Source: Microcaldota archaeon
GTDB lineage: Archaea; Micrarchaeota; Micrarchaeia; Micrarchaeales; CABMGC01
Assembly (NCBI GenBank): GCA_021850705.1
Contig: JAJZKU010000010.1
Coordinates: 1 to 33,519, forward strand
Direction: 5' to 3'
DNA: 33,519 nt
Position 1 is the first letter of the stretch. The number at the start of each line of letters is the position of its first letter. Positions 6,666 to 16,215 of the stretch are shown here, in pieces. The notes beneath the pieces are model-generated. The model searched no databases, was not told the origin of the DNA, and worked only from the letters and a program-made list of their open reading frames with translations. A program made the position numbers and the translations under genes.

Positions 6666-6748
6666 TACTAATATCAGAATAAGACAGAGTATCGGCAAGC
6701 ATTATAAATATGATTGTGCAATCATATATTGTGTCAATAGGTGCAGGT

Positions 6749-7243
6749 ATGATAAACGCAATACGCCTGGTACTCGGCTCTAAAACTTACCTGTTTGCTT
6801 TTCTAGTAATCGCAATATTATCATTTCTCGGTTATTCGTTTCTCATTTCAAGCTCTTCGTTAAATCTCCTTCAGCCCAAAATAATACTTGGCCTAAATGC
6901 TTTCTCCCTTACAGTATCTGTTCTAGTAAGCGTGCTTCTCGGATTCTCTCTTGCTGCCAATGCCTATGCATTTTCAAACAATACCTCGATGAGTGGCAAG
7001 ACAGGGTTCGGTGCAATACTTGCCGCACTGCTGCCCAGTAGCCTATGCTGCACATCGGTCATACCTGCAATACTGGCTGCGTTTGGCGCATCTACATCCA
7101 CAATAATAGGAACGGCAGGCGCTATTCAGGGACCGTTTGCAACCTATGAGCCACTCTTTATTATATCCTCGATAATACTTCTTGCCTTCAGTGTCTTTCT
7201 CGTGACAAGAAATATTGAGAAATGTTGTAAGGTGAAAAAATGA
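6749..7243 (+). CDS. Small multi-TM protein, MerT-like/mercury-cluster membrane protein
   Basis: Four predicted hydrophobic segments and a paired-Cys motif in LLPSSLCCTSVIPAILAAFGAS. Start assigned to MINAIRLV because AGGTG lies exactly 5 nt upstream. First gene of a run ending in merA. Confidence 0.65.
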   Translation: MINAIRLVLGSKTYLFAFLVIAILSFLGYSFLISSSSLNLLQPKIILGLNAFSLTVSVLVSVLLGFSLAANAYAFSNNTSMSGKTGFGAILAALLPSSLCCTSVIPAILAAFGASTSTIIGTAGAIQGPFATYEPLFIISSIILLAFSVFLVTRNIEKCCKVKK

Positions 7244-7797
7244 AAAAAAGCTTGATGATAGGTGCGGTAGTCAGTATTGTGGTAATCGCAGCTGTGCTGT
7301 TGTTTATTCAGTCAAATCAGAATATCAGGAGTGAAAATACCAAAAACATCACTATAGGGTCTAAAGCTCCGGATTATAATTTTCTTCTGGATAACGGTTC
7401 ATATGCAAATCTATCAAAATACAAAGGGCATACTACGCTCTTATGGTTTGTAGCTACATGGTGTTCTACCTGCGCCCAGGGGAATCAGGTTGTAAATCAG
7501 AACTATCAATTCTTCAAGAGCCGTGGAATCAAGATAGTGGAACTGGAAATGTACAATGACCTCGGTTACCAGGGTCCTGCTATAGCCAACTTTGTAAGCT
7601 CTTATGCACCAAACGCTTACTCCAACAATACAGTAATACCTGCTCTTGCAGGATATAATATGACTGCAAGTTACGACCCTAAGGGCTATCTTGACATATA
7701 CTATCTTATCTCTTCAAATGGCACTGTGTTATACATAAACGGGTCTCCTTCATATACTCTGGGCCAGTTGGAAGGGGCAATAAACAGCTCTTTATAG
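7240..7797 (+). CDS. Membrane-anchored TlpA/thioredoxin-like protein
   Basis: N-terminal TM, GSKAPDYNFLLDNGSYANLSKYKGHTTLLWFVATWCSTCAQGNQV (CxxC). AGGTG-N5-ATG start. Confidence 0.85.
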   Translation: MKKSLMIGAVVSIVVIAAVLLFIQSNQNIRSENTKNITIGSKAPDYNFLLDNGSYANLSKYKGHTTLLWFVATWCSTCAQGNQVVNQNYQFFKSRGIKIVELEMYNDLGYQGPAIANFVSSYAPNAYSNNTVIPALAGYNMTASYDPKGYLDIYYLISSNGTVLYINGSPSYTLGQLEGAINSSL

Positions 7798-7806
7798 CGT
7801 GATCAT

Positions 7807-8139
7807 ATGGACAAATTGGAGTTTAAGGTATTTTTCTATGCGATAGGAGATTACAGCAGATTCAGCATACTGGAGGCACTTGAAAAGAAGGACCTTAATG
7901 TAAGCGAGATTGTCGAGATTACTGGCATTGAGCAGAGCAACGCCTCCCATCATCTGCACTGCCTGCTTAATTGTGGTTTCGTTAAGGTCAGAAAGGAGGG
8001 AAAGGAGCGCATATACGCAATAAATACAGAAGTAAAGCAGACGGTAAGGAGCATAATAAAGCACATAAACTATTACAAAACGCAGATAATATCATGTGAT
8101 ATTGCAAACAAGGAGTACATTTCAAAGGTGGTTAGATAG
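7807..8139 (+). CDS. ArsR-family winged-helix transcriptional regulator
   Basis: YSRFSILEALEKKDLNVSEIVEITGIEQSNASHHLHCLLNCGFVKVRKEGKERIYAI. Confidence 0.88.
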   Translation: MDKLEFKVFFYAIGDYSRFSILEALEKKDLNVSEIVEITGIEQSNASHHLHCLLNCGFVKVRKEGKERIYAINTEVKQTVRSIIKHINYYKTQIISCDIANKEYISKVVR

Positions 8140-9551
8140 AGGAGTTTGAATATGCGATATTTGGACAGGGTTCTGCAGCATTTGCGGCAGCCATAAAAGC
8201 AAACGAGCTTGGAATCAAGACGGTAATGATAGGCCATGGTGCAACTGAAGGTGCAGTACTGGGAGGAACATGCATAAATGTCGGGTGTGTACCAAGCAAG
8301 AGGCTGATAACAGTAAGTACGTTCTTAGAGGAACTAAGAAAAAGAAGATATTCGGGACTGCGATACGAGATTGGAAAGATTGAATACGGGAAGATAGTCG
8401 CAGAGAAGGACAAACTGGTAGATGAGTTAAGAGGCCAGAAGTATACAGATGTACTGGGTGCGCTTGAGAACATAACCTTCATGGACAAATTAGGCAGATT
8501 CGAAGATGCGAATACTATTATTGCAGGGAAAAAAGAGGTGCATTCGAAAAATACACTTATAGCGACAGGTGCAAGAGCATCTGTCCCGAAGATCAAGGGG
8601 ATAGAAAAGGCAAGATACCTTACAAATGAAGAAGCTTTGTCAATGAAAGAGCTTCCGGAATCATTGATAGTAGTAGGCGGGAGGGCGCTGGGCCTTGAAT
8701 TCACACAGCTATTTGCAAGGCTCGGTGTCAGAGTCACATTGCTCCAGAGAAGCAACAGGATAATACCAAACTGGGAGCCTGAGATAGGAAACTATATGAC
8801 AGAGTATATGGATGAGGATGGGATCAAGATAGTTACCAGTGCAGAATTAGTCAGTATAGATTCGGGAAAAAGGTCAACGAGCATAACTGCGAGAGTCAAT
8901 GGAAAGGAGCAGGTCTTCGAAGCGCAGGAGATACTCTTTGCAACCGGAAGGACGGCAAACATAGAAGAACTTAACCTTAATTCCGCAGGCGTGAAGCTGA
9001 ATGAGAGGAACTTCATAAAAGTTGACAAAGGGCTAAAGACCACCGCAGGGAACATATATGCTGCAGGGGATGTTACTGGAGAGCCGATGCTCGAGACGCT
9101 TGCTGCAAAAGAGGGCAATATTGCAACATCAAACATCTTTGAGAAGGCAAATAAGACCATAAACCTGAATGAGGTGCCGAGTGCGATATTCACATACCCT
9201 GAAGCTGCAATGGTAGGCATGACTGAAGAGCAGGTTATAAAAAACAAAATAAGGTGCAGCTGCAGCCCTCTAGAGTTGCGATTCGTAGCAAAGTCAGCGA
9301 TAATAGGAGATACCAGGGGTCTGGTAAAGATAGTGATAGACCATAAGACAAAGAAGATATTGGGAGTGCACATACTTGCCCCACATGCGGCAGAGCTGAT
9401 ACACGAAGGGGCGCTTGCGGTCAAATTCGGCCTTACTATAGATGACCTAATAGACACTGTGCACGTATTCCCAACGCTGAGCGAGAGCCTGAAGCTTGCG
9501 GCAATGGCTTTCTACCAGGACATCTCCAAGCTCAGTTGCTGTACAGTATAA
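8136..9551 (+). CDS. merA: Mercuric reductase MerA (proposed ATA start overlapping the arsR stop)
   Basis: GGTCINVGCVPSKRLI redox centre, ATGARASVPKIKG, AAGDVTGEPMLETLAAKEG and C-terminal SKLSCCTV Cys pair. The reading frame encodes EFEYAIFGQGSAAFAAAIKANELGIKTVMI upstream of the first ATG (8226), so the FAD-binding GxGxxA lies upstream of any ATG/GTG/TTG. Confidence 0.85.
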   Translation: MEEFEYAIFGQGSAAFAAAIKANELGIKTVMIGHGATEGAVLGGTCINVGCVPSKRLITVSTFLEELRKRRYSGLRYEIGKIEYGKIVAEKDKLVDELRGQKYTDVLGALENITFMDKLGRFEDANTIIAGKKEVHSKNTLIATGARASVPKIKGIEKARYLTNEEALSMKELPESLIVVGGRALGLEFTQLFARLGVRVTLLQRSNRIIPNWEPEIGNYMTEYMDEDGIKIVTSAELVSIDSGKRSTSITARVNGKEQVFEAQEILFATGRTANIEELNLNSAGVKLNERNFIKVDKGLKTTAGNIYAAGDVTGEPMLETLAAKEGNIATSNIFEKANKTINLNEVPSAIFTYPEAAMVGMTEEQVIKNKIRCSCSPLELRFVAKSAIIGDTRGLVKIVIDHKTKKILGVHILAPHAAELIHEGALAVKFGLTIDDLIDTVHVFPTLSESLKLAAMAFYQDISKLSCCTV

Positions 9552-14761: not shown

Positions 14762-14810
14762 ACAGATAAAATGTGCACGGAGTGTGCAGAAAACCAGAAC
14801 CTTTATCTGT
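14762..14810 (-). other. Nested inverted repeat around the stop codon/3' end of the two-wHTH regulator gene
   Basis: Reverse strand ACAGATAAA...TGCAC-ACTCC-GTGCA...TTTATCTGT: 9-bp outer arms (TAA stop in the left arm) plus inner 5-bp hairpin. Confidence 0.5.
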
Positions 14811-16215
14811 TTCCATTTATCATTTCCTTTAGTTTTTCAGGATTATAATTGTAATGAGAGACAAGTATCTCATACTGCCTTGTCTTTATCTTATCAGAAA
14901 ATCTGCTGTTAACAGAACCTACTATTATGTCCGTTACTACTATCTCATATATCCTGGCGCCTCCTGTATCTTTGATAAGTCGTTCTGCAATTGCCTCCGG
15001 GTTCTGATCTTTGAATACATGTGCCATCAGCAAGACTCCTTTCGGGGACATTATATCGCATGCGAACGAGTAGGTGTCAACCTGCAGGTCATTCTCTTTT
15101 ATGAGATCAAGCATAAATCTCTCTCTGCCCTTTAACCAGCTATCTATATTTATAATATTCAGTATGAACAGCGCATCAAACCTTGATGACAGGTTCCTCA
15201 TATTCACAGTAGCCCTCTTTATTATTCCCCTGTCGATAAGCCTGTGATAAGCGTAATTGGATCTTCCCCTTTCTGTATGAATCTCCCTGTCGATAGAGGC
15301 GAAGTCCGCAGCAGCATTCTTGTTCATTGCCATCAATACATTATATTCCACTTCTGTTATCTGGTCATGCTCTGGTCTCGGCTTCTCCCTTGTTCTCTTC
15401 CATACCTTCTCCTTCAATACCTCGAAGAACTCCTTTCTAAGCGGTATGAAACCCAATCCGCTGAAATACGCCGGAGACATTGTCCATTCAATATCATAAG
15501 AGGATAAAACCTCGCGTGTGAAGTCGTACAGTGCGCCTCTTGCATTGCTGTTAGATTCTGCAACAAGAAGAACTACTATGTCATATTCGCCTTTTGTTAT
15601 CATGGCTGCCTGAACATAAGGATACTTCTCAAGCTCCTCCTTCATCTGATTAAGCACAGGCTTTTTATTGAGGAACTTTCCAAAAGCGACATAATCTACA
15701 TATCCAAACTTCTCTATGTCTATCTCCAGCACATATTCCATATCATATCTTCTCTCAAGGTTTCTCAGATGATATGCCACAGTGGTCTCTTTTATCCCAG
15801 TTATCTTTACAAGCTCAGGTATCGTCTTCCTCGCATCCATACTTAACGCCCTGAGTATATCACGCTCATGCCTTTCCGTCTCCCTTTTCCTTATGCCTTC
15901 ATCTACTATTTTCGTCTCAGCTTCCTTCTGGGAATCCTGCAGAGCCGAAAGCCTCTCCCTGTTCTCTTTTTCCATCTCCTTTAGTTCTTTTGTACGTTCA
16001 TCCCTGTGCTCAGCAGGTATGAACATTCCATCATCTGTGAACCATCCCAGATACTTCGTAACCTTATCTGATCTGCCCTTCTCTTTGTTATACACGCTTG
16101 TAGCCTGGAAGAGCCTGTACCTTCCACGCAGCATCTTTGCCTCAACATAATGGCCATACTCCTTGCGTATGCGTTCAACGGCTCTTTCTATGTTCTCGGG
16201 CAGTTTCTTGGGCAG
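14803..16215 (-). CDS. Two-wHTH Lrp/AsnC-like transcriptional regulator (proposed CTG start)
   Basis: DILRALSMDARKTIPELVKITGIKETTVAYHLRNLERRYDM and EYNVLMAMNKNAAADFASIDREIHTERGRSNYAYHRLIDRGIIKRATV helix-turn-helix regions with RAM-like segments. The open frame continues upstream of the ATG at 16134 as LPKKLPENIERAVERIRKEYGHYVEAK. Confidence 0.75.
   Translation of the reverse strand: MPKKLPENIERAVERIRKEYGHYVEAKMLRGRYRLFQATSVYNKEKGRSDKVTKYLGWFTDDGMFIPAEHRDERTKELKEMEKENRERLSALQDSQKEAETKIVDEGIRKRETERHERDILRALSMDARKTIPELVKITGIKETTVAYHLRNLERRYDMEYVLEIDIEKFGYVDYVAFGKFLNKKPVLNQMKEELEKYPYVQAAMITKGEYDIVVLLVAESNSNARGALYDFTREVLSSYDIEWTMSPAYFSGLGFIPLRKEFFEVLKEKVWKRTREKPRPEHDQITEVEYNVLMAMNKNAAADFASIDREIHTERGRSNYAYHRLIDRGIIKRATVNMRNLSSRFDALFILNIINIDSWLKGRERFMLDLIKENDLQVDTYSFACDIMSPKGVLLMAHVFKDQNPEAIAERLIKDTGGARIYEIVVTDIIVGSVNSRFSDKIKTRQYEILVSHYNYNPEKLKEMINGNR

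Follow-up and report, generated by a model that had tools for sequence, protein, structure and literature searches.

The window, i.e., the whole stretch of 33,519 nucleotides that was analysed, belongs to a MAG of 647 kb in 24 contigs that is 79% complete (G000) and most likely Micrarchaeota, as are nearly all MAGs among its close relatives. Four genes on its forward strand make up a small mer cluster: a MerT-like membrane protein with a weak match (6710–7243; PF02411, E = 6.6e-5, under the gathering score), a TlpA/ResA-like redoxin (7240–7797; PF08534 and PF00578), an arsR-family regulator of the HTH_5 type that is likely the mer regulator (7807–8139; NF033788, 74 bits against a cut-off of 55; PF01022), and merA (8136–9551, 471 codons, without an NmerA domain; PF07992 and PF02852). 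Read from 8136, MerA is full-length and scores 545.4 bits against TIGR02053 (cut-off 454.45), and this curated-model score predicts a mercury(II) reductase. Its translation contains both the redox pair CxxxxC (GTCINVGCVPSK) and the C-terminal vicinal cysteines (KLSCCTV).

From 8136 the merA frame reads ATA GAG GAG TTT GAA TAT GCG ATA TTT GGA CAG GGT TCT GCA GCA and, as the original prediction had it, contains no ATG, GTG, or TTG ahead of the FAD-binding motif GQGSAA (8163–8180). The first in-frame canonical codon is the ATG of codon 31 (8226–8228), the likely choice of a standard gene caller, and the only nearer ATG, at 8152, is not in the merA frame. Starting at 8226 would indeed delete the motif, as was also claimed. 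The positions proposed for AGGTG (8126–8130), the in-frame TAG (8133–8135), ATA (8136–8138), and the arsR stop TAG (8137–8139) are all correct. The in-frame TAG stands immediately 5′ of ATA and excludes an upstream start, and the putative start codon AUA overlaps the arsR stop as ATAG (8136–8139). A Shine-Dalgarno-like (SD) AGGTGG (8126–8131) lies inside the arsR tail, with a gap of 4 nt between the end of GGTGG and ATA. Since residue 5 of MerA aligns with position 2 of the TIGR02053 model, the merA start should be at, or no more than a few codons from, 8136.

Orthologous merA loci, the comparison of which had been suggested together with the prediction, were searched for in the genus, the family, the class, and a species-level genome collection, which gave 55 distinct sequences, 53 of them with a readable start. 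ATA occupies exactly the homologous codon in 23 of the 53 (this locus counted), although these 23 are mutually related, mostly come from MAGs, and do not represent 23 independent events. Several species thus have no ATG, GTG, or TTG at the homology-defined start, which supports the genuine AUA start that the original prediction listed among its options. One of the ATA orthologues (L079) belongs to G245, a single-contig genome of 929 kb. On the tree they span two families, with ATG at several places inside it. The arsR TAG is found at +1, giving the same shared stop-start bases ATAG, in 22 of the 23; the remaining locus, L052, keeps ATA, with an arsR TAA 3 nt earlier. In nearly all ATA orthologues the codon just 5′ of ATA is a stop (TAA, TGA, or TAG), and an upstream start is therefore impossible there. 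The exceptions are L074, which has an in-frame GTG further up, and L052, where the stop is three codons up.

Except for L052, orthologues that do not overlap arsR have a canonical start. The junction in L053 is TAATG, L071 and L072 have ATG upstream of the site and an arsR that ends earlier in TGA, and L004 has ATG, with no arsR detected beside merA. In L069 the codon itself is ATG, and with TGG in place of its TAG stop, arsR runs six more codons to a TAA at +19. The predicted cost of changing ATA to ATG inside ATAG is thus the loss of the arsR stop, and AUA would be retained at least partly because of it; that L052 keeps ATA suggests that the arsR stop may not be the only reason. A few orthologues have GTG or TTG codons inside the first beta strand, and starting from these, or from the upstream GTG of L074, would truncate or extend MerA, unlike in all others. 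A distant merA (L066, G063:C15) has no ATG, GTG, or TTG before the first beta strand, and its sequence (GGTGA, ATTT, and then ACG) suggests an ACG start.

Substitution patterns place the beginning of the coding sequence at the same point. In codons 2–30 of the merA frame (residues EEFEYAIFGQGSAAFAAAIK in this genome, before Met31), 29% of pairwise codon differences are non-synonymous; the figure is 92% and 95% when the two alternative frames are read, and 79% for the eight codons preceding ATA. Coding selection sets in immediately after ATA. In the 22 overlap loci the first A of ATA doubles as the wobble position of the final arsR codon, which is AAA in 12, GAA in 7, AGA in 2, and GCA in 1, so that A is present in 22 of 22; no simple probability is given for this invariance, since the sequences share descent. 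In these genes, A-ending codons account for 41–50% of use for the same amino acids, and the wobble positions nearby are variable. ATA also has an invariant T and an invariant second A in the overlap loci, which follows from the arsR stop TAG. The invariant first A is explained by a start codon and not by the arsR stop.

GGTGATT or a close variant (GGTGRTT) precedes ATA in 23 of 23 ATA orthologues. In G000, GGTGA stands mostly 4–5 nt before ATG, which is the commonest spacing for its ATG-led GGTGA genes, and the 4 nt at merA agree with the earlier remark that AGGTG sits at the spacing used by neighbours. The merA ATA is therefore a single-base neighbour of AUG with a properly spaced SD.

Other genes with a coding signal well upstream of any ATG, GTG, or TTG were sought by a coding-potential scan of stretches covering much of G000 and of 400 kb from each of two relatives. 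The G000 stretches yielded 21 candidates among 595 genes, with some noise, and homology backs pyrH (ACG), fen1 (ATA), rnhB (ATT/ATA), and topA (ATT). A PAC2 protein, sufD, and others are likely further cases. Several candidates, such as L097, L087 147–503, and many in G021 and G245, were not counted because they resemble weak calls, antisense shadows, or effects of contig ends. The same scan of 250 kb of E. coli K-12 gave 2 of 219 genes, namely infC, the AUU start of which is textbook knowledge, and the pseudogene yhdW.

For fen1, ATA follows GGTGAG and TAG/TGA in four species of the genus (G000:C20, L133 17556 on the − strand and L172; L184; L170; L163), and the G000 gene has no canonical codon in its first ~100 codons. 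Elsewhere in the family, two genomes have CTG at the homologous codon, and almost all the rest have TTG, GTG, or ATG. Among six species of the genus, five carry ACG at the pyrH start position (L086:3277, L196, L199, L197, L207, L195), two of these five also having an in-frame GTG or TTG a few codons upstream, and the sixth carries ATG (L206). In topA, four species of the genus have ATA and one has ATT, with a TTG three codons further in for two of these five, while rnhB reads GGTGAT CTT ATT ATT ATA in all five genes found in the genus. G021, from another genus, has ACG at the start position of uS4 (L256:3489) and aIF2-alpha (L250:12150, − strand); for uS4, others have ATG, GTG, or TTG there. 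The window itself likely holds a second non-canonical start, a CTG at 16215–16213 that opens a 470-codon gene with an Lrp/AsnC-like region (14803–16215, − strand), follows GGTGG by 4 nt, and lies 27 codons 5′ of the first ATG (16134).

Two further codons observed at such positions differ from AUG by two bases. The fen1 of G075 (L169) has GCG at the start position after GGTGAGTGA and no canonical codon for ~69 codons, and a Nop gene (L099) has GTA.

Codons after GGTGN were also counted in three genomes, only where no canonical start is near. At 4–5 nt, near-cognate and other codons stand at 13:7, compared with 9:63 at other spacings (Fisher p = 7.7e-6). ATC hits directly followed by ATG in the first SD-anchored table were artefacts and are excluded from this count. 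Near-cognate starts (AUA, AUU, ACG, and CUG) with a well-spaced GGTGN thus appear to serve a minor fraction of genes, some of them housekeeping genes. A relaxed start-codon rule in the lineage is accordingly a probable reading: a few per cent of genes, among them fen1, topA, pyrH, and, in one relative, uS4, would regularly start from AUA, AUU, ACG, CUG, and perhaps other codons, with a strong and well-spaced SD offsetting the weak codon.

The initiation machinery looks ordinary. aIF1 (SUI1) is present in 70 of 79 family genomes, by which its loss is rejected as the cause of near-cognate starts; SUI1 was not found in G000, which fits an incomplete MAG. An odd initiator tRNA is rejected too, as those of G000 and G245 have the archaeal hallmarks, A1-U72 and three G-C pairs. 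The agmatidine enzyme TiaS was found in 4 of 4 archaeal controls and in 0 of 79 family genomes, and G245 and G021 carry a tRNA-Ile with anticodon UAU (L222:10558–10634 and L248:9085–9161). These findings suggest that the lineage decodes AUA without agmatidine. Binding of elongator tRNAs to aIF2 is not expected, which counts against the view that AUA at initiation is read by tRNA-Ile(UAU) instead of the CAU initiator, for which the UAU tRNAs of the two relatives and the missing TiaS could speak. The same genomes, however, also start with ACG, CUG, AUU, UUG, and GUG, and a mismatching CAU initiator explains all of them, which leaves the tRNA-Ile(UAU) reading very improbable.

Taken together, it is highly probable that merA is translated from the AUA at 8136, as one case of wider near-cognate initiation in these Micrarchaeota. 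In the mechanism we propose, arsR and merA would share a polycistronic mRNA on which the SD in the arsR tail (AGGTGG in this genome, mostly GGTGATT in relatives) positions the ribosome, and the ordinary initiator Met-tRNA (anticodon CAU) would occupy the AUA that follows after 4 nt, despite a mismatch at the third position. The first MerA residue would accordingly be methionine. Because AUA shares two bases with the stop (AUAG), a ribosome finishing arsR would already be at the merA start; initiation is therefore probably by termination-reinitiation after arsR, and MerA output would be tied to ArsR translation. Such translational coupling is suggested by the ATAG overlap, and MerA output may also be tuned.

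The overlapping frames also invite another reading, an ArsR-MerA fusion in which ribosomes pass the junction by programmed frameshifting or by reading through the stop, merA being in the −1 frame with respect to arsR. This, too, has very little probability: almost every locus has an in-frame stop directly 5′ of ATA, the loci share no slippery heptamer (GTTAGATAG, GATTAAATAG, and GATTGAATAG), and in the orthologues with ATG arsR and merA are separate genes. A programmed −1 frameshift was rejected on the first two of these grounds. Still less credible is translation of a short protein from the in-frame ATG at 8226, even though Met31 is kept in most orthologues and gene callers would be expected to choose it. 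It would leave the GxGxxA FAD motif and codons 2–30 untranslated, although they evolve as coding sequence and match TIGR02053 from model position 2, and the ATG-bearing orthologues begin at codon 1. A sequencing or assembly error (or polymorphism) concealing a true ATG, or a single decayed allele, both among the options of the original prediction and conceivable for MAG data from a 79% complete genome, can be practically dismissed and are rejected here, as 22 further distinct orthologues, independently assembled and in one case from a single-contig genome, have the identical ATA, ATG at 8136 would abolish the arsR stop, and the merA frame is intact and under purifying selection.

Initiation of merA from AUA resembles several known systems in part. 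E. coli infC and pcnB, with their AUU starts, likewise have a near-cognate start in a well-defined gene, and infC was recovered by the same scan. In infC, AUU serves IF3 feedback on start codon choice. Here, in contrast, near-cognate starts concern a resistance gene together with several unrelated housekeeping genes, and the merA codon shares bases with the stop codon of the gene before it. The latter feature is shared with ATGA and TAATG termination-reinitiation overlaps, where stop and start also have bases in common and the SD lies in the upstream gene; the merA start, however, is AUA (AUAG), a form compatible with a TAG stop and with G as the first base of codon 2. Archaeal mer operons likewise have an ArsR-type regulator beside merA and a MerA without NmerA, but here the start codon is different, and a TlpA-like redoxin and a MerT-like gene lie upstream. 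Micrarchaeota MerA proteins have been counted before, with start codons unmentioned (PMC8261052). In Nanoarchaeum equitans and Ca. Korarchaeum, AUA is read by tRNA-Ile(UAU), tRNAs with this anticodon being recorded in only 2 of 167 archaeal genomes (PMC6000648). There the UAU tRNA is an elongation feature of two genomes, whereas in the present case TiaS is missing family-wide and AUA would also be a start codon.

The literature searched, in which few subscription journals are represented, yielded no report of AUA or other near-cognate start codons from archaea, Micrarchaeota included. Starts other than ATG, GTG, and TTG usually count as rare exceptions, which standard gene callers disallow. 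At merA, an AUA start would be fixed across a broad set of archaeal species, in a lineage that appears to use several near-cognates in core genes. It would offer a natural system for how archaeal initiation (aIF1, aIF2, initiator tRNA, and SD) sets codon stringency. N-termini in these genomes, as well as MerA surveys built on them, would need correction, and, if the relaxed rule is true, many public Micrarchaeota proteins are annotated with false N-termini.
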